Below, in pieces: positions 2,531 to 11,748 of a stretch of DNA of 11,748 nt (position 1 is the first letter of the stretch; every line of letters begins with the position of its first letter). The notes under the pieces are model-generated. The model searched no databases. It saw only the letters and a program-made list of their open reading frames with translations, and was not told the DNA's origin. A program made the translations under genes and the position numbers. The stretch comes from Rudanella sp. Its GTDB lineage: Bacteria; Bacteroidota; Bacteroidia; Cytophagales; Spirosomataceae. The DNA lies in NCBI GenBank assembly GCA_026785985.1, contig JAJAYX010000432.1, forward strand, positions 1 to 11,748, in the 5' to 3' direction.

Positions 2531-2564
2531 AAAAGCGGAGGGAGAAATCCTTTCGCTTTTTTTT
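2531..2564 (+). terminator. Rho-independent terminator of gldJ, probably bidirectional
   Basis: Bases 2531-2542 pair with 2549-2560 as a 12-bp stem with two G-U wobbles and a 6-nt loop (agaaat). An uninterrupted T run continues to 2564 on the + strand and overlaps the comF stop codon. In the opposite direction the stem is followed by TTTTATAA, so it can also end comF transcription coming from the right. It sits exactly between two convergent genes. Confidence 0.85.
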
Positions 2565-3267
2565 ATTTGGTTGCGGCAATAGTCAGCACACTTACGGATC
2601 GGCACCCAGCCCGGTGCAGTTCAATGGCACAGGCTTCGAGAGTGGCCCCTGTTGTCAGTACATCATCAACGAGTGCAACATGCTTGCCGAGGATTGCATC
2701 GGGTTTAGCTACCCTAAATACCGTTTCTACATTTAACCAGCGTTGCAATCTGTTTCTGCGCGTTTGTGAACCATTGAACCGGATTCTCACCATTACATCA
2801 TCACGCATCGGCAATTGGGTGGTTTCGCTCAGTCCTTCGGCAATACAATCGGCCTGATTATAACCCCGTTTGCGAAGTCGTTTTTTGTGAAGAGGAACCC
2901 CGATCAATAAATCAATTTCGTTGATCCACGGGCATTCCTGTTGAAGTTGATGCCCATACCATTGGCCCACCAGCACCGCTGATTCTGGACGATCTTTGTA
3001 CTTTATTTCATGGATTAATTTCTGAATAATGGTCTTCTTGACAAACCTATAGTGAGCCGCAACGTGTTCAACTTTTACCTTGCCGGCAAATCTGTAAATC
3101 AGTTCTGACTCCATTTCACGATGGTAGCCAGTTTCAGGAAGGTTCATTCGGCAATGCACACAAAGCAACTTCTCCTGCTTATCCAATGTCTGTTTACAAC
3201 CGAGGCAAAGGTTCGGATAAACAACATCCCAAAAGTCTATAAACCATTCAGAAACAAACCTAAACAT
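2563..3267 (-). CDS. comF: ComF family phosphoribosyltransferase-like protein
   Basis: This 234-aa protein has the ComF/GntX layout. An N-terminal zinc-binding pair of CxxC motifs (C21/C24 and C36/C39) is followed by a type I phosphoribosyltransferase domain. The PRPP-binding signature VALVDDVLTTGATLE is at about 197-211, with the two acidic residues D201-D202 and the TTGAT loop. The conserved ComF stretch PLHKKRLRKRGYNQA lies in the middle. In naturally competent bacteria ComF supports uptake of single-stranded DNA, probably with ComFA/DprA. In non-competent bacteria the role is not settled, and no nucleobase substrate can be assigned from sequence. It lies alone on the minus strand, convergent with gldJ and divergent from the 121-aa gene 46 nt away. 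I saw no clean TAnnTTTG promoter in that short gap. Confidence 0.9.
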   Translation of the reverse strand: MFRFVSEWFIDFWDVVYPNLCLGCKQTLDKQEKLLCVHCRMNLPETGYHREMESELIYRFAGKVKVEHVAAHYRFVKKTIIQKLIHEIKYKDRPESAVLVGQWYGHQLQQECPWINEIDLLIGVPLHKKRLRKRGYNQADCIAEGLSETTQLPMRDDVMVRIRFNGSQTRRNRLQRWLNVETVFRVAKPDAILGKHVALVDDVLTTGATLEACAIELHRAGCRSVSVLTIAATK

Positions 3268-3313: not shown

Positions 3314-3679
3314 ATGGACGACGCTAGCACTTTACCAGTTGCCGATATTGATTTCGCCTGGGAATCTCTTTTAAATCAAATAGAATCGTTGGTGGGAAAA
3401 CGCCCTGCTGATTTGAACTCGGTACTGTTTTTGATCGGAATTCAGGAGTTAGGCCGAGGGCCGAAACGATTTACTAAAGAACAAAAACAAGACTTATTGC
3501 ACATTGCTGTTTGCCGGGTTATGAGTTTGTCAGGCTATTATTCTTTTGATGGATATGACGCTGACGGATGGCCCATGTGGACCTTACTAAAGCCAATTTC
3601 ACAATCGGGTTTACTGGAACAGGAAGCACTCATCAAAGCAAATGTAATTCGGTATTTTGATCAAACACTGACCTATTGA
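3314..3679 (+). CDS. Conserved Bacteroidota protein of unknown function (121 aa)
   Basis: I recognise this as a type of small soluble protein common in Bacteroidota genomes but know no function for it. There is no signal peptide or membrane segment. The strongest-looking blocks are LNSVLFLIGIQELG (about residues 36-49), FTKEQKQDLLHIAVCRVMSLSGYY (about 54-77, split by the family's Lys/Asp-rich helix) and DADGWPMW (about 82-89), followed by a helical tail. The first 30 residues look variable. It starts with ATG 46 nt from the divergent comF start and ends 34 nt before the DUF4175-like gene, so it is probably the first gene of a two-gene unit. TAATTTAG at 3298-3305 resembles the -7 element with one mismatch, but no partner element is at the right distance. 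Confidence 0.8.
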   Translation: MDDASTLPVADIDFAWESLLNQIESLVGKRPADLNSVLFLIGIQELGRGPKRFTKEQKQDLLHIAVCRVMSLSGYYSFDGYDADGWPMWTLLKPISQSGLLEQEALIKANVIRYFDQTLTY

Positions 3680-3713: not shown

Positions 3714-6700
3714 ATGCAGTCATACGACACCCTTCTTCAGCGCATCGAGGAATACAAGAAGCGTTATTTTCAGAATCAGCTCGTAAAAGGGTTGTTGTTT
3801 TTTGTGGCTTTAGTTGGGTCACTTTATTTGCTCATCAACACTGCTGAATTTGTTGGGCGGTTTGGTTCGTCGGGGCGGGCGGTCATGTTCTTTGGCTTTC
3901 TGCTGACGATTCTGACAACCCTCTATCTGTTCATCATTAAACCCATGCTCGGTTTGTATGGACTTCGCAGACCCCTCTCGAACGACGAAGCGGCCCGGCA
4001 AATCGGCACCTTCTTTCCTGAAGTGGGGGATAAGCTCCTAAACACATTACAGCTTCAGCGACTGTCTTCTGACCAGAGCGATTTGATGCAGGCCAGTTTG
4101 CAACAGCGGTCTCAGCAATTACTCATCACCCGTTTTGCCAATGCTATTCAGATAAATCGGAATCGCCGGTTTCTAAAATTTGCCGTACCTCCCTTGGCCC
4201 TGATTGCAGGAATCCTTTTGGTGAATCCTAATTTCTTTAAGATGTCATCGGCTCGGATCGTTAATTACAACCGGGAGTTTGCTGAAGAAGCCCCCTTCCA
4301 ATTTATCCTTCAAAACAAGTCGTTGAAGGCATTTCGGAATGAAGATTTTCCGCTGTCTGTGCGTTTAAAAGGGGATGCCATTCCCCAGGATGTTTATTTG
4401 GTAACAAACGAAACTCGCTTTAAGCTGGAACCTTCCAATGGTCTTTTTGTCTATACATTCGACAATGTCCAGCGAGATTTAGACTTCCATTTAGAAGCCT
4501 CTGGTTTCCGCTCTTCTGACTATAAAGTTGAATTAATTGACCGTCCGGCTGTGTTGAATTTCGATGTTAAACTGGTTTATCCAGCTTATCTTAACAAACC
4601 AGCCGAGCAGCTTTCAAACGTTGGCAACCTTCTGATTCCACAGGGCACCACCGTCACCTGGAACTTTGTTGCCGACCATACTGATTCGCTTTCGCTTCAG
4701 TTTGGGGCAGGAACAAAACCTGTTTTGGCCCAACACGTCGACGAAAATGGCTTTACGGCTTCGCGTCGGCTGATGCAAAACACAACCTTAAACGTGGTAT
4801 TGAAGAATGCGCAAGTGCCAACGCCTTCGTCAATCAACTATGCAATCCAGGTGATCCCGGATCGGTTTCCGTCCATTTCTGTGGATAAAATTCAGGATAC
4901 GATCTCCTATAGTGCCATTGCTTTGAATGGTTTAATTTCGGATGATTATGGTTTTACACGCCTTCGGTTGAATTATAAAATCATTCGTAAAGGCAAAGAA
5001 TCCCCTCTTTACAGCAAAGACATTATGATCAACCGTTCGTCCACTTCGCAAAACTTTGCCTACAACTGGTCGCTCGATAGTTTGAAGTTAGATAAAGAAG
5101 ACCGCATTGATTATTTTGTCCAGGTATGGGATAACGACGGAGCGAATGGCCCTAAATCAGCTCGGTCGAATCCCATGAATTTTGCCATTCCTTCTAATCA
5201 GGAAGTGCAGCAACAGATTGATAAATCGGCTGAGAAAACTGAGGAGCAAATTGATCAGGCTTTAAGTAAAACCCAGGAAATCAAGAAGGAGTTGAATCAG
5301 ATGGAAGACCGGCTTCGCACTAAAAAAGCAACCGATTTTCAGGATAAAAAGCAACTGGAAGACGTGTTGAAAAAACGCGAAGAACTGATTGAGCAAATCA
5401 GGCAGCTTCAGGAACAATTCCAGAAAACAAACCAAACTCAGGAACGCTTTGCCCAGACTGATCCACAGATGCAACAGAAAATGGATCAGTTGGAGAAGAT
5501 GTTCAAGGACTTGATGGATCCTGAATCAAAGAAACTTTATGAGGAATTGAAGCAGCTTTTAGAGCGCAAGCAAGACGATAAAGCCAGTGAAACGCTTGAT
5601 CGGTTGAGCCGGAAAGAAAAAAATATGCAACGCGATCTGGAGCGGGCCATGAAGTTGTTCAAGCAAATGCAGTTGGAGCAGAAGCTGGATAACGTGGTGA
5701 ACGATCTGGAAAAGCAAGCACAGGTACAGGAGAAAGAAGCTGAAGAAAACAACAAGCCCGAAAACGATAAGAACGATAAAAATAGCACTCCTGAACAGAA
5801 AGCGCAACAGGAAAAAGAACAGGAGAAGCAAGCTAAAGAGCAGGAAAAAGCAATGGAGAATTTTAAAAAGACTCAGGAGCAATTGAAAGAACTCGAAAAG
5901 CAGGCGGAGAAAGACGAACTTCGTTCGCCCGACAAGCAGGAAGATACGCAGAAAGACATCGAACAGGAGATGCAGGATGCTAAAAAGCAATTGGATCAAA
6001 AACAGAGTAAAAAGGCTTCGTCATCGCAAAGTAAGACGGCGAAATCCATGCGGAGCATGATGAAGTCGATGCAAATGTCTATGGCTTCGATGGAGGCTCA
6101 GGAATTACAGGAGAACATGGATGATCTTCGTAATCTACTTGAAAATCTAATTACCTTGTCGTTTGGCGAGGAGCGTCTAATGAAAGAGTTTCGCGGGATT
6201 AACCTACAGGATCCACGGGTAGGCAAACTTTCACAGGAGCAGTTGAAACTTCAGGACGATGCCCGGATTGTCGAAGACAGCCTGAATGCGTTGGCCTCCC
6301 GTGTTAATCAGATCCAATCGTTTGTCACTCGTGAGATGTCGAACATGAAGTATTACATGGATCAAAGTGTGCAACAGTTGAAAGAGCGTAAACTGGCTCA
6401 GGCTTCTTCCCGCCAACAATTTGCCATGACTTCCATGAATAATCTGGCGTTGTTATTGAGTGATGTTCTTAAGAATATGCAACAGCAAATGAACGCGATG
6501 GGTGCTCCCGGCTCTGGCAAGGGAAAGGGGAAAAGCAATAGCCCGTCGGGTGAAATGGGTGAAATGCAAAAGCAATTGAACGGCAAAATGAAACAAATGT
6601 CTCAGGGTGGTACAACTGGACGTGCCTTGTCGGAACAAATGGCACAGATGGCCGCAGAACAAGCAATGATCCGAAGTTTACTCAAAAAATTGCAGGAGGG

Positions 6701-7061
6701 AGCTAAGGGGACAGAAGTTGGCAAACAAATGGAAAAGCAAGTCAACGAACTGATGGAAAAGATGGATCAAACAGAAACTGAGTTAGTCAATAAACGTGTC
6801 AATCCGATTACCATCAATCGGCAAAACGAAATTCTTACTCGTTTACTGGAATCGGAAAAAGCCTTGAAGCAACAGGAAGAAGATCCAAAACGTCAATCGC
6901 AGACTGCTAAAAGCCCTAAAGTTAGCACACCTTCTTTCTTTGATTCGCTGAATAATCGTCCTCAAATAAAACAAGCTGAGGTATTACGTTCGGTGTTACC
7001 AACCTATAATCCGTACTATAAAAAGCAGGCGAACGACTATTTACAAAAAGTGTCGAAATAA
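3714..7061 (+). CDS. DUF4175-like inner-membrane protein with very long coiled coil (1115 aa)
   Basis: Function is unknown. The protein starts with two hydrophobic segments (about residues 23-42 and 57-77), then a short helical region and a third (about 153-170), placing the N-terminus in the inner membrane. Residues about 190-490 alternate like beta-sandwich domains (for example VYLVTNETRFKLEP and IDYFVQVWDNDGA) and would be extracytoplasmic given three membrane segments. From about 495 to 770 the sequence is an almost pure Gln/Glu/Lys coiled coil, with low-complexity KEQEKQAKEQEK around 700. Met-rich helices (about 777-825 and 903-993) flank a Gly/Ser/Lys linker (about 929-942). The C-terminal 60 residues are less biased (PTYNPYYKKQANDYLQ). 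It matches the size and layout of Bacteroidota proteins annotated as DUF4175, which often stand beside mnmG as here. Leu/Phe-rich reading frames on the opposite strand are artefacts of the biased codons. Confidence 0.8.
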   Translation: MQSYDTLLQRIEEYKKRYFQNQLVKGLLFFVALVGSLYLLINTAEFVGRFGSSGRAVMFFGFLLTILTTLYLFIIKPMLGLYGLRRPLSNDEAARQIGTFFPEVGDKLLNTLQLQRLSSDQSDLMQASLQQRSQQLLITRFANAIQINRNRRFLKFAVPPLALIAGILLVNPNFFKMSSARIVNYNREFAEEAPFQFILQNKSLKAFRNEDFPLSVRLKGDAIPQDVYLVTNETRFKLEPSNGLFVYTFDNVQRDLDFHLEASGFRSSDYKVELIDRPAVLNFDVKLVYPAYLNKPAEQLSNVGNLLIPQGTTVTWNFVADHTDSLSLQFGAGTKPVLAQHVDENGFTASRRLMQNTTLNVVLKNAQVPTPSSINYAIQVIPDRFPSISVDKIQDTISYSAIALNGLISDDYGFTRLRLNYKIIRKGKESPLYSKDIMINRSSTSQNFAYNWSLDSLKLDKEDRIDYFVQVWDNDGANGPKSARSNPMNFAIPSNQEVQQQIDKSAEKTEEQIDQALSKTQEIKKELNQMEDRLRTKKATDFQDKKQLEDVLKKREELIEQIRQLQEQFQKTNQTQERFAQTDPQMQQKMDQLEKMFKDLMDPESKKLYEELKQLLERKQDDKASETLDRLSRKEKNMQRDLERAMKLFKQMQLEQKLDNVVNDLEKQAQVQEKEAEENNKPENDKNDKNSTPEQKAQQEKEQEKQAKEQEKAMENFKKTQEQLKELEKQAEKDELRSPDKQEDTQKDIEQEMQDAKKQLDQKQSKKASSSQSKTAKSMRSMMKSMQMSMASMEAQELQENMDDLRNLLENLITLSFGEERLMKEFRGINLQDPRVGKLSQEQLKLQDDARIVEDSLNALASRVNQIQSFVTREMSNMKYYMDQSVQQLKERKLAQASSRQQFAMTSMNNLALLLSDVLKNMQQQMNAMGAPGSGKGKGKSNSPSGEMGEMQKQLNGKMKQMSQGGTTGRALSEQMAQMAAEQAMIRSLLKKLQEGAKGTEVGKQMEKQVNELMEKMDQTETELVNKRVNPITINRQNEILTRLLESEKALKQQEEDPKRQSQTAKSPKVSTPSFFDSLNNRPQIKQAEVLRSVLPTYNPYYKKQANDYLQKVSK

Positions 7062-7152: not shown

Positions 7153-9015
7153 ATGTACGAAACATACGATGTAATTGTAGTTGGTGCCGGACATGCCGGG
7201 TGTGAGGCTGCACATGGGGCTGCAACAATGGGATCAAAGGTTCTGCTCATTACAATGAACATGCAAACAATAGCCCAAATGTCCTGCAACCCGGCAATGG
7301 GTGGCGTGGCCAAAGGGCAAATTGTGAGAGAAGTGGATGCACTAGGGGGTATGTCAGGTATTATCAGCGATAAAAGCATGATCCAGTTCAGGATGCTCAA
7401 TCGCTCGAAAGGCCCCGCCATGTGGAGCCCCCGCTGCCAAAGCGATAGAAATATGTTCGCCAACGAATGGCGACTAACACTCGAAAGAAATTTAAATATT
7501 GATTTTTGGCAAGACAGCGTCAACGAAGTGATCGTGAAAGATGGCCGGATTCAAGGTGTAAAAACCAATATGGGAATCACATTTATGTCTAAATCAGTAG
7601 TATTGACAAACGGTACATTTCTGAATGGGCGGATATTTATAGGCCAAAAAACCTTTGGAGGGGGCCGCACCGCCGAACGGGCTGCAACCGGATTAACGGA
7701 ACAATTGATCCAATTGGGGTTTGAATCAGGCCGGATGAAAACAGGAACACCTCCAAGAATAGACGGAAGAAGTCTGAATTATGATGCAATGGAAGAGCAG
7801 GCAGGAGACGAAAATCCTGGCAAATTTTCCTACAGTAATACCAAAGCATTAACGAAACAGCGTAGTTGTTGGATCACCTATACTAATACGGAAGTGCATG
7901 AAACTTTGAAAGAAGGCTTTGAACAATCACCCATGTTCACAGGTCGGATCAAAGGATTGGGGCCACGTTACTGCCCGTCAATTGAAGATAAGATCAACCG
8001 ATTCGCAGACAAGGATCGACATCAGATTTTTGTGGAACCAGAAGGGTGGGAGACAGTGGAAGTGTATGTAAATGGTTTCTCTACCTCACTGCCAGAAGAC
8101 GTTCAACAAAAGGCTTTGCAAAAAATTCCGGGATTTGAGAAGGCCAGAATGTTTCGACCGGGTTATGCAGTAGAATACGATTTCTTTCCGCCAACACAGT
8201 TAAAACACACGCTGGAAACTCATTTGGTGCATAATCTCTTCTTTGCAGGCCAGATAAACGGGACAACGGGATATGAAGAAGCCGCTTGCCAGGGACTGAT
8301 TGCCGGGATAAATGCGCACCAGGTTGTGGCGGAAAAGAACCCATTTACAGTGAGCCGCTCAGAGGGTTACATTGGTGTTTTAATTGATGATCTGATTACC
8401 AAAGGCACCGAGGAACCCTATCGGATGTTTACTTCACGGGCTGAATACCGAACACTTTTGCGCCAGGATAACGCCGATTTACGATTGACTGAAAAAGGAT
8501 ATGGTGTAGGTTTGGCTTCTCATGAACGACACGAAAAAGCGCAGAAAAAGCGAAAGCAAATTGCTGCTTTGATTGACGATATACGCACAACAAAAGTAAA
8601 ACCAGACGAAATAAACGGATGGTTATCTGGAGTTCAAAGTGCGCAATTGAAGGAAAAAAACAGCCTTTATGGGCTGATCAAACGGCCAGAAATTGGATTA
8701 TCCGAAATCGATTATTTATTACAGTTTCTGCCGAGTTCAGAAAGTAAGCCAACTTTGGAGACAATTGAGCAGGCTATGATTGAAATTAAGTACGAAGACT
8801 ATCTCGGTCGTGAACGGGTAAATGCTGACAAAATTGGGAAATGGGAAGGTTTAGAGATTAAGCAAGATTTTGACTATGACCGCATTAAAGCACTCTCGTT
8901 TGAAGGCCGTGATAAACTGAAACGATTAAAACCAGCAACCATTGGACAAGCTTCACGCATTAGTGGGGTCAGCCCATCTGATATTTCGATCTTGCTTGTT
9001 TATATGGGCCGGTAA
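7153..9015 (+). CDS. mnmG: tRNA uridine-5-carboxymethylaminomethyl modification enzyme MnmG (GidA)
   Basis: MnmG is the FAD-dependent partner of the GTPase MnmE. Together they install the cmnm5 group on wobble U34 of certain tRNAs using methylenetetrahydrofolate, NADH and glycine. The 620-aa length equals the usual family size. The N-terminal dinucleotide-binding motif [12 protein letters not shown] (about residues 9-20) is intact. So are [24 protein letters not shown] with Cys45, [23 protein letters not shown] with the functional Cys274, [14 protein letters not shown], and [20 protein letters not shown]. The C-terminal helical MnmE/tRNA-binding region is complete. The ATG at 7153 is preferred over the TTG six codons upstream because [11 protein letters not shown] is the normal family start, and the A-rich leader is typical of this phylum. 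A parS-like site and direct repeats occupy the leader. From this gene on, third codon positions favour A over T, unlike the genes to the left. Confidence 0.97.
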
Positions 9016-9072: not shown

Positions 9073-9957
9073 ATGACTCAGGAAATAATACAAAACTGCC
9101 CCATCTGCCAACACACAACTTTCAAACCATACATAGTTTGCAAAGATTATTTAGTTAGTCAGGATGAATTCACCATTCAGAACTGTGAGGAATGTGGGTT
9201 TAGGTTCACCGATCCACGGCCAGATAGTAAGTCAATTGGGAGCTATTATCAGTCAACCGATTATGTTTCGCACAACGATAAAAGTGGGGGCCTTGTCAAT
9301 AAACTATACCGCTTGGTTCGGCAATTTACATTGCGTCAAAAACTGAATCTCATCAATTCCATACAACCAGAAAAAGGAAAACTATTGGATATTGGATGTG
9401 GAACAGGGCTATTTTTAGAAACATGCCAACAAGGAGGATGGTCGGTCGAAGGGGTTGAACCAGATGGTAGCCCACGAAGCGCAGCGGCTGATCGGCTGAA
9501 AAAAGCAGTGGTAGAAACCATTCACGAAGTAGGGGAGGAGTCCTACAATATTATTACGATGTGGCACGTTTTGGAACATGTTCCTAATCTTCAGGAAACG
9601 ATCAACGAACTAAAAAATCTATTGCAAAATGGTGGAACACTCTTGTTAGCCCTACCAAACTCAGATTCTTATGATGCGAAGCATTTTAAACAATATTGGG
9701 CTGCCTATGATATTCCCCGGCATTTATCTCACTTCACACCAGAGAGCGTAAACCGATTAGTTACTCAGGCGGGATTTACGTTAGCAGCAATACGCCCCAT
9801 GTATTTCGACTCATTTTATATTGGGATGCTCAGTACACGCCACCGCGACGGACAAACAAATTGGATCGAAAGCATTTTTCAGGGCATACGCTCAAACTGG
9901 TCAGGGAGCAAAACAGGCAATTACTCCAGTCTCATTTATATGTTTAAGAAGGACTAA
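9073..9957 (+). CDS. Class I SAM-dependent methyltransferase with N-terminal zinc-binding motif
   Basis: This 294-aa protein starts with a probable zinc ribbon: CPIC (C9/C12) and CEEC (C38/C41). A UbiG-like Rossmann methyltransferase domain follows: motif I LLDIGCGTG at 104-112, the acidic residue of motif II in VEPDG at about 132-136, the post-II motif HVLEH at 165-169, and HLSHFTPESVNRLVTQAGF in the C-terminal part. Enzymes of this layout methylate small molecules, lipids or sugars; no substrate can be named. The same kind of methyltransferase often follows mnmG in Bacteroidota. ATG 9073 is chosen over TTG 9058, which lies inside the terminator's T run. Codon use is strongly A-ending (32 of 60 codons at 9361-9540). 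Confidence 0.88.
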   Translation: MTQEIIQNCPICQHTTFKPYIVCKDYLVSQDEFTIQNCEECGFRFTDPRPDSKSIGSYYQSTDYVSHNDKSGGLVNKLYRLVRQFTLRQKLNLINSIQPEKGKLLDIGCGTGLFLETCQQGGWSVEGVEPDGSPRSAAADRLKKAVVETIHEVGEESYNIITMWHVLEHVPNLQETINELKNLLQNGGTLLLALPNSDSYDAKHFKQYWAAYDIPRHLSHFTPESVNRLVTQAGFTLAAIRPMYFDSFYIGMLSTRHRDGQTNWIESIFQGIRSNWSGSKTGNYSSLIYMFKKD

Positions 9958-9972
9958 CTGAAACCCGTGAGG

Positions 9973-9995
9973 ACAGGGGTATTAACCTCTGTTTT
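9973..9995 (+). terminator. Probable terminator after the methyltransferase gene
   Basis: ACAGGGGT (9973-9980) pairs with ACCTCTGT (9985-9992), 8 bp with one G-U wobble around the loop ATTA, followed by a short T run ending at 9995. It begins 16 nt after the stop codon. The run of T is short, so termination may be incomplete. Confidence 0.6.
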
Positions 9996-10134
9996 CAACA
10001 GCCACGGAAAAGGTCAATTCAAAATAAAAAATAGATAAGAATTTAGTGGAAAACAGTGTTGAAAACTATGCGTTTGCCGTGTATAAGCGGAGAAATTCCG
10101 GCATCACAATTGTGTATATCTGGATAGTTATCCC

Positions 10135-10155
10135 AGAAGGTGTATAAATCCTTCT
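10135..10155. repeat. Inverted repeat enclosing a DnaA-box-like site
   Basis: AGAAGG (10135-10140) and CCTTCT (10150-10155) are perfect inverted copies around a 9-nt loop that overlaps the box-like GGTGTATAA (10139-10147). Directly to its left, 10120-10136 (CTGGATA, GT, TATCCCAG) is another near palindrome. Confidence 0.5.
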
Positions 10156-10215
10156 ACACATATGGATAACCACCGTCGAACCAACATCATAGTAACAAGT
10201 TTTAAGCAGGTGCTT

Positions 10216-10227
10216 ATTGTTAACAAT
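10216..10227. repeat. Perfect 12-bp palindrome
   Basis: ATTGTTAACAAT is its own reverse complement. It lies between the left and right groups of DnaA-box-like sites and may be a binding site for a dimeric protein; which one is unknown. Confidence 0.55.
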
Positions 10228-10265
10228 CTGACTTAGTTGATAAGTGCAAAAACATGTAAGCCGAA

Positions 10266-10274
10266 TGTGTATAA
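10266..10274 (-). promoter_or_regulatory. DnaA box, exact match to TTWTNCACA
   Basis: The minus strand reads TTATACACA, matching every defined position of the consensus. It is followed within 4 nt by the perfect palindrome at 10278-10287 and lies near the centre of the box cluster. Confidence 0.6.
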
Positions 10275-10277
10275 CTT

Positions 10278-10287
10278 GTTAATTAAC
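10278..10287. repeat. Perfect 10-bp AT-rich palindrome
   Basis: GTTAATTAAC is its own reverse complement and stands 3 nt from the exact DnaA box at 10266-10274. Confidence 0.45.
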
Positions 10288-10385
10288 TGGTTATGAGACA
10301 ACTAAAAGTGGATAACAAATTACGGGCTGGGTATAACTATGTTGAGAAAAAAGACGTTATTGTGAAGTGTATGTGGAAAGAAAAG

Positions 10386-10402
10386 CTGTCCACATATCCA
10401 CA
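10386..10402 (+). promoter_or_regulatory. Overlapping pair of DnaA-box-like sites beside AT-rich DNA
   Basis: CTGTCCACA (10386-10394, two mismatches to TTATCCACA) is immediately followed by ATATCCACA (10394-10402, one mismatch), both in + orientation. They directly abut the 14% GC stretch beginning at 10406, the arrangement expected for boxes next to a DNA unwinding element. Confidence 0.5.
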
Positions 10403-10405
10403 GCC

Positions 10406-10447
10406 ATAATAGGTTTTAATAGCTTTAAGAATTAATTAAACTATAAA
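10406..10447. other. Very AT-rich stretch, candidate DNA unwinding element and leader of the TPR gene
   Basis: Only 6 of 42 bases are G or C. It runs from the last DnaA-box-like site to the start codon of the TPR gene. It must also contain that gene's leader and perhaps its promoter: TAGCTTTA at 10420-10427 resembles TAnnTTTG with one mismatch but has no TTG partner at a suitable distance. Confidence 0.45.
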
Positions 10448-11748
10448 ATGAAATATAGGTTTGTGAATATCTTTATTTGCTTTGGACTCCTGTTGAGCGG
10501 GGTATCCCTAAGCTATGCCCAGTCACCATCGGAACTGGCAGACGAGTATTACAAAAAAGATGAGTTCGACAAAGCAGCGAACGAATATGCGCGGGTGTTG
10601 AAAAACCAGGTAAGCTGGCCCGTTGCGTTTCGCTATGTGAATAGTCTGATTCGGGTCAACAAAACAGATGAGGCTGAAAAGTACCTTAAAAGACAAACCC
10701 GCTCGGAAAACGAAAACACACATCTTTACGAAATTCTGTCAGGTTTTCTAGCCAGTAAGAAACCCGATACGCTTGAGGTGAGCAAACATTTCAATGCAGC
10801 CCTCAAAGGAGCGCAGAGATCAACGGCAAAGGCCGAGCAGACAGCTACGGCGTTTGCAGACATTAGCGAGCCTAAATGGGCCATTGCTGCCCTTCTGTTG
10901 GCCCGTGAACAAAGCCGCGAAGCAAATTCCTACAGTGAGGAACTGGCAAGCCTGTATCGAGCAACCGGGCAAAACGAAAAATGGCTGGGTGAGTTATTCA
11001 CGCTAAATCGGTTTTCTGAAAAGCGCGAAAAGGTGATGGCGGCTTTGCAGGGAGTTATCAACACCAAAGAGGAAGAAATGTTGGAAAAGGCTCTATACTC
11101 GCGGGTGCAACAGGAGCCAAACGAACTAAGTTATGTGGAACTGCTAACGTGGTATCTGGTACAAAAGCAAAAATTTAGCCGGGCATTGCTACAGGAGAAA
11201 GCCACCGACCGGCGTTTGAAACTGAACGGTAGCCGGGTGTATGACCTCGGAAACATTGCCCTTAGCAACAAAGAATATAAAACAGCCACCGATGCGTTCG
11301 ACTATGTAGCGGCCAATTATCCACAGGGACAACTGTATCCGTTCGCCCGCCGATTGACGATCAATGCCCGGGAAGAACAAATCAAAAATACCTATCCGGT
11401 CGATCCATCGGAGATTCGTAAATTAATTGCGAGTTACCAGAGTATGTTGCAGGAGATTGGCTCCAACGCCAAAACGCTGGAAGCTCTGCGGAGTACGGCG
11501 AATTTATACGCCAACTACCTCGATCAGAAAGATACGGCCCTCACAGTTTTGGATTTAGCCATTGAATTGGGGAAAACCGACCGGAATTTTGTGGATAAGT
11601 GTAAACTCGACAAAGGCGATATTTATTTATTGAAAAATGAGCCGTGGGAATCCACATTATTATACTCCCAAGTGGAAATGTCGCAGCGGGAGGAGCAAGT
11701 GGGCCACGAGGCAAAACTGAAAAACGCCAAACTGCATTACTACAGCGG
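10448..11748 (+). CDS. Exported tetratricopeptide-repeat protein, 3' end beyond window
   Basis: The frame is open for 433 codons to the edge with no stop. The start ATG follows an A-rich leader and opens a clear signal peptide: MKYRFVN, a hydrophobic core, and a likely signal peptidase I site after SLSYA (cleavage about 24/25), so the protein is exported. The mature part is all-helical. TPR-like pairs are visible at the start (ADEYYKKDEFDKAANEYARVL, split here at residues about 32-52), around 260-290 (YDLGNIALSNKEYKTATDAF) and near the edge (DKGDIYLLKNEPWESTLLYS then AKLKNAKLHYYSG). Similar TPR proteins of about 600 aa are common in Bacteroidota; no function is known to me. It is transcribed away from the candidate origin. 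Confidence 0.85.
   Translation, partial: MKYRFVNIFICFGLLLSGVSLSYAQSPSELADEYYKKDEFDKAANEYARVLKNQVSWPVAFRYVNSLIRVNKTDEAEKYLKRQTRSENENTHLYEILSGFLASKKPDTLEVSKHFNAALKGAQRSTAKAEQTATAFADISEPKWAIAALLLAREQSREANSYSEELASLYRATGQNEKWLGELFTLNRFSEKREKVMAALQGVINTKEEEMLEKALYSRVQQEPNELSYVELLTWYLVQKQKFSRALLQEKATDRRLKLNGSRVYDLGNIALSNKEYKTATDAFDYVAANYPQGQLYPFARRLTINAREEQIKNTYPVDPSEIRKLIASYQSMLQEIGSNAKTLEALRSTANLYANYLDQKDTALTVLDLAIELGKTDRNFVDKCKLDKGDIYLLKNEPWESTLLYSQVEMSQREEQVGHEAKLKNAKLHYYS

Follow-up and report, generated by a model that had tools for sequence, protein, structure and literature searches.

A conserved DnaA-box array upstream of a TPR gene as the very probable chromosomal origin of Rudanella sp. 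and its relatives

Genomic context of the locus

The window analyzed here, a stretch of 11,748 nucleotides from Rudanella sp., is one entire contig of an 891-contig assembly that is 71.7% complete. Its annotated genes are the following:

1-1206, mfd, 3' part
1203-2510, gldJ (open reading frame)
2563-3267, minus strand, ComF-like gene, scoring under the cut-off of the ComF family
3314-3679, small open reading frame without a family match
3714-7061, DUF4175 protein
7153-9015, plus strand, mnmG (gidA), reading frame open from 7135 (TIGR00136, 823.5 bits; cut-off 524.9)
9073-9957, plus strand, class I SAM methyltransferase gene, reading frame open from 9058 (Pfam Methyltransf_23, 105.9 bits)
10448-11746, plus strand, TPR gene, 5' 433 codons, truncated where the contig stops (in relatives the gene has about 605 codons)

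The methyltransferase gene and the TPR gene are the left and right neighbors of the gap on which this study centers. The presence of gldJ is indicative of Bacteroidota. The closest named record, locus L032, is labelled 'Flavobacterium sp. SUN052' and matches the window at 67% in the best methyltransferase segment and at 89% in the TPR protein. A search for structured RNA in the window returned no Rfam match at the gathering score.

DnaA boxes and base composition of the gap

The features of the gap that are discussed below are these:

9958-10447, no strand assigned, intergenic DnaA-box array, the proposed oriC; 490 bp from the methyltransferase stop (9957) to the TPR start (10448)
10004-10045, no strand assigned, left AT-rich block, from AAAAGGTCAATT onward
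10266-10274, minus strand, sole exact DnaA box of the gap, TTATACACA
10386-10402, plus strand, right-hand tandem DnaA boxes CTGTCCACA (two mismatches) and ATATCCACA (one mismatch), overlapping by one base and directed toward the AT-rich stretch
10403-10447, plus strand, candidate unwinding element: a short spacer, TAATAG (two trio-like triplets) and AT-rich sequence up to the TPR start codon

The original prediction had described positions 9996-10447 as a gap of about 35% GC carrying one exact DnaA box, at least eleven one-mismatch boxes on both strands, perfect palindromes and a 42-bp stretch at 14% GC, with a box density far above that of the rest of the window. Each of these descriptions was recovered by measurement. 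The GC content is 34.1% in that interval and 35.1% in the full 490-bp gap, against 44.3% in the whole window; the 42-bp stretch, which is the lowest-GC 42-mer of the gap, lies at 10406-10447; the exact box is TTATACACA at 10266 on the minus strand; 13 one-mismatch matches to TTWTNCACA were counted (2 on the plus and 11 on the minus strand); and the best 450-bp stretch outside the gap holds 4.

When up to one mismatch was allowed, the 490-bp gap contained nine sites for TTATNCACA (10078-, 10111-, 10139-, 10152+, 10161-, 10266-, which is exact, 10307-, 10328- and 10394+) and 15 for TTWTNCACA, whereas the means in dinucleotide shuffles were 1.06 and 2.35, respectively, and neither count was reached in any of 300 shuffles. 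The exact box taken alone is within chance, one exact TTATNCACA appearing in 15 and one exact TTWTNCACA in 44 of the 300 shuffles. The strength of the array lies in its near-consensus boxes, and the single exact box is unremarkable.

An alignment of 12 gap sequences, inspected by eye, displayed a left AT-rich block, several GTGGATAA-like blocks and, on the right, the tandem boxes, after which come TAAT and a run of AT-rich sequence. The left block was the most conserved stretch other than the boxes by this inspection and is a candidate second opening site or protein-binding site. The three perfect palindromes of 10-12 bp (10105, CACAATTGTG; 10216, ATTGTTAACAAT; 10278, GTTAATTAAC) look incidental, because only the first was retained in the alignment, and in one relative (L032); they were therefore rejected as conserved elements.

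Conservation of the box cluster in relatives

Two sets of loci were compared. The first, collected by the methyltransferase gene, comprises 32 loci including the window's own copy (L002), with a second copy of the window (L001) excluded. In 25 of the 32 the TPR gene follows directly, and all 25 of these gaps (475-623 bp) hold 6-16 box sites. The remaining seven have no TPR gene within reach; in six of them it comes some 2.2-2.3 kb later, and the seventh is a distant MAG (L033). On the other side, 0-4 sites were found in the roughly 2.4 kb ahead of the methyltransferase stop, or 5 in L032, where 8.9 kb are available on that side. In genera with a distant TPR gene, the 560 bp before it hold 12-18 sites in L217-L222, 13 in L234 and 7 in L236.

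The second set, collected by the TPR gene, comprises 46 loci from 22 genera, the window (L194) included. Here 4-18 sites lie directly upstream of the TPR gene, with at least 6 at 45 of the 46 loci. The boxes thus stay with the TPR gene across genera, which makes this gene the better landmark in the window's family. Loss of the boxes in close relatives had been named in advance as evidence against an origin; instead, all 24 relatives that share the gene order retain the cluster, with 6-16 sites per gap, and so do the 45 TPR loci.

Outside the family, the TPR gene does not serve as a landmark in at least three genomes of family f2 of the same order, where it and the tight box pairs are separated by more than 1 Mb. 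Dense exact-box clusters at that distance were seen at G178:C1:2058870-2059395, G214:C1:2117989-2118577 and G165:C1:3016750-3017118, and probably represent the origin of the f2 family in another setting. Within genus g27, genome G062 has its box pairs close to where the TPR gene ends (3' side), and its congener L227 has 8 sites upstream. The TPR match in G105 is partial and the locus is partly N.

Tandem boxes and the candidate unwinding element

The right-hand tandem motif was retained in 37 of 45 TPR loci, window included. The stretch after the last box has a GC content of 13-27% in 43 of 44 loci, the exception being L207 (42%). A TAA triplet begins four bases past the last box in 27 of the 44 loci, compared with 2.7 in shuffles, and further TAA peaks occur in the same phase at offsets 13 (19) and 16 (16). 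Two trio-like triplets follow the tandem boxes of the window, and three follow four other boxes of the gap. Runs of three trios were found at 28 of 44 loci against 26.6 expected, and 118 of 300 shuffles gave values as high, so that the length of a DnaA-trio run was rejected as evidence.

GC skew, position of dnaA and uniqueness of the cluster

Since the window's assembly consists of many fragments (891 contigs at 72% completeness), skew was examined in six relatives, each sampled with 20 segments of 20 kb spaced 285-351 kb apart. An origin had been predicted to coincide with the skew minimum, and in five of the six relatives the cumulative GC-skew minimum falls at the orthologous place. Its distance from the locus is 53 kb in G004, 131 kb in G113, 139 kb in G105, 83 kb in G038 (same genus as the window) and 61 kb in G088, which at the given spacing is the closest match that such sampling can show. 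The skew contrast was reached by 2, 0, 2, 0 and 0 of 500 permutations, respectively, under a control that is slightly lenient owing to its use of three arm lengths (7, 10 and 13) against seven (7-13) in the observed search. The sixth relative, G130, has no usable skew: 246 of 500 permutations gave a contrast as large as its 0.022, and the minimum, taken at face value, lies 2.2 Mb from the locus. The assemblies of G038, G113 and G105 consist of 2-4 contigs and were handled as one circle. Finer samples of G038 placed the lowest point in a segment centered on 3.264 Mb, within a nearly flat stretch at 3.25-3.32 Mb; the locus lies at 3.246-3.249 Mb.

A position beside dnaA is common among bacterial origins but is no requirement; here dnaA is 0.8-2.3 Mb from the locus in all six sampled relatives. 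The 20 loci at dnaA matches, including a weak fragment of the window's own genome, have no more than 3 sites in any 500 bp, and an origin beside dnaA was rejected on these counts. The window's own assembly carries a C-terminal DnaA fragment with GGRDHSTVIHA, which we take to be the canonical box-binding motif of DnaA.

The sampled relative DNA amounts to 2.61 Mb (30.6 kb of it N), or 4.5-9.6% of each of the six genomes. In it, the only 500-bp segments with at least 6 sites belong to the locus itself, at L184 (G038) and L156 (G105), and the next best segment holds 5; in the other four genomes the cluster at the locus lies outside the sampled segments. Over five distance classes, with the two samples holding or adjoining the locus excluded, the density of one-mismatch boxes is flat (0.53-0.62 per kb), and a broad gradient of such boxes toward the origin was accordingly rejected. 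For exact boxes the density rises somewhat close to the locus, the nearest fifth containing 12 in 360 kb and the other classes 6-9 in 400 kb.

Pairs of exact boxes at most 30 bp apart occur elsewhere in many genomes, some of them 20-100 kb from the locus. In G038 such pairs miss the locus and match two other places, which makes them a poor genome-wide detector. Those situated 20-50 kb from the locus (G148:C1:7861632, G004:C1:6576119, G026:C1:2757842, G063:C1:4250782 and G074:C1:5872318) are possible DnaA-regulated or titration sites.

DnaA boxes within and behind the TPR gene

The coding sequences of 45 TPR genes, with L228 omitted from the count since its gene start was not resolved, contain 60 exact DnaA boxes against 8.9 expected from synonymous shuffles that use the same codons, and 250 boxes with up to one mismatch against 117 expected. 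Applied to 358 control ORFs, the test gave 16 exact boxes against 13.4 and 397 boxes against 380, and this nearness to expectation indicates that the synonymous-shuffle null is sound. An exact box is present in 30 of the 45 TPR genes and in 16 of the 358 controls; two or more are present in 19 of the TPR genes and in none of the controls, among which the TPR gene of G038 happens to be included and tops the list. The 24 methyltransferase genes exhibited no box excess (0 exact against 0.30, and 7 with one mismatch against 15.2). In the TPR part of the window there are 2 exact boxes (11317+ and 11590-; shuffle mean 0.38, reached by 9 of 200 shuffles) and 6 sites with up to one mismatch (mean 2.35, reached by 1 of 200).

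The 60 exact boxes are distributed over 12 alignment sites, and 46 of them fall at four of these sites. The excess is uneven: in 8 of 21 genera (g16, g32, g27, g19, g34, g21, g20 and g12) the TPR gene has no exact box. Genus g4 contributes 16 of the 45 genes, and related sequences are not independent. From the computed excess we infer that the boxes in the TPR gene may act as accessory DnaA-binding or titration sites.

Enrichment continues behind the TPR stop, where 34 exact boxes were counted in 28.4 kb (29 loci), against 42 in 1.96 Mb of samples, with 27 of the 34 lying within 150 bases of the stop. In genus g4, two exact boxes in inverted orientation form the outer stem of the terminator between the TPR gene and the next gene, and the inner stem and loop vary between species. 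This feature is located as follows:

just past the TPR stop, g4 box-flanked terminator, at 10 loci (L200-L202, L204-L206, L209, L210, L212 and L213)

A pattern search recovered the box-flanked terminator in 10 of 13 g4 genomes, with one extra match elsewhere in each of G145 and G125; it was not seen in L195-L197, which belong to the window's genus, or in L032, and the window itself ends before the site. The g4 terminator could be a DnaA-dependent roadblock or an extra binding site. The next gene in G038 is a convergent threonine synthase gene (TIGR00260, 256.8 bits). Of four loci whose TPR-side flank was examined for rRNA genes, L032 and L153 have them at a distance of up to about 10 kb, and none were found at L184 and L156, both of which are partly N. 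Many draft contigs (G097:C1, G054:C19, G029:C45 and others) end about 4 kb past the TPR match, as would be expected if an rRNA operon follows.

The gap as a chromosomal origin

The claim of a candidate chromosomal origin is supported by the box counts, the conservation and the skew minimum in five of six relatives, and on the sequence evidence the gap at 9958-10447 is very probably the chromosomal oriC. The low counts at dnaA matches, the uniqueness of the cluster in the sampled 2.61 Mb, the DnaA fragment of the window's own assembly and the rRNA genes at two of four loci speak for it as well. Speaking against it are the single exact box of the gap, the lack of a skew signal in G130, the two instead of three trio-like triplets after the window's tandem boxes, and the exact-box pairs at other places in many genomes. 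The box array, its conservation, the geometry of tandem boxes, spacer and AT-rich stretch, and the skew switch in relatives are computed; DnaA binding, the side of opening and helicase loading at the gap are what we infer from them. Under this interpretation, DnaA supplied by a far-off dnaA gene would bind the box array on both strands, and the tandem boxes at 10386-10402 would guide a DnaA oligomer rightward over the short spacer and the trio-like start TAATAG. The AT-rich stretch ahead of the TPR start codon would then open, to be followed by helicase loading and bidirectional replication.

In a different account replication would start at another place, and the cluster would either titrate or reactivate DnaA in the manner of datA/DARS-like sites or act as a promoter through which DnaA controls the TPR gene. 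DnaA boxes do cluster at datA/DARS-like sites too, according to the portion of PMC12371093 consulted, and between genera the boxes track the TPR gene rather than the methyltransferase gene. This account is nevertheless very unlikely in view of the skew minimum at the locus in five of six relatives, the lack of a rival cluster of at least 6 sites in the 2.61 Mb sampled, and the dnaA loci, which are without such a cluster. That the gap serves a secondary replicon or an integrated plasmid as its origin instead of the main chromosome, a thought invited by the window being a lone 11.7-kb contig, is scarcely credible, given that the window carries mfd, gldJ and mnmG and that the orthologous locus sits on the main contig (5.7-8.8 Mb) of the six sampled relatives. 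The predominance of one-mismatch sites and the unexceptional exact box might suggest degenerate matches that arose by chance in AT-rich DNA; this reading was rejected with near certainty, since none of 300 shuffles reached the counts and the cluster is kept in all 24 relatives of the same gene order.

If the gap is the chromosomal oriC, the origin may extend past it. We lean slightly toward a reading in which the TPR gene, holding exact boxes through synonymous codon choice, and the terminator behind it, which in one related genus has inverted exact boxes on its flanks, would make up an accessory half of oriC, on one side only, for binding or titrating DnaA. If true, the coding-sequence boxes would offer a clear example of a protein-coding gene constrained by the function of the origin next to it, testable by recoding. 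The gap itself provides a defensible oriC for a group in which dnaA does not lead to the origin, and a simple landmark for it, directly upstream of one TPR gene (45 of 46 loci, 22 genera), which is useful for coverage-based growth estimates and for the orientation of assemblies.

Comparison with known systems

Origins beside gidA/mnmG occur in other bacteria. The present locus resembles them in that mnmG lies two genes from the gap, and differs in that a methyltransferase gene stands between and dnaA is not near. The titles and abstract openings searched gave no account of an origin in this gap, and the origin of a relative may already stand in DoriC; in the portion of PMC11354047 consulted, oriC appears solely within a protein name. 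As far as the literature search reached, this oriC is ordinary in kind and new for the window's group; the exact boxes within the TPR coding sequence and the box-flanked g4 terminator are its more unusual traits.

In E. coli, DnaA boxes are enriched near oriC for titration, as stated in the part of PMC12371093 used here. The surplus of boxes beyond the origin proper is a shared trait, whereas the enrichment described here is local and one-sided, covering the TPR gene and about one kb behind it. A further comparison is with the basal unwinding system (BUS): in the sections of PMC8287927 consulted, tandem boxes are the commonest BUS arrangement (57%), and the BUS search required a run of three or more NAN triplets no further than 16 bases from a box. 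The gap has a box array, tandem boxes, a short spacer, AT-rich DNA and an in-phase TAA start on the same strand in common with that system, but departs from the search rule of three trios, two trio-like triplets following the tandem boxes of the window. Judged by its layout, the gap appears to work like a BUS origin, and we do not file it as a proven BUS.
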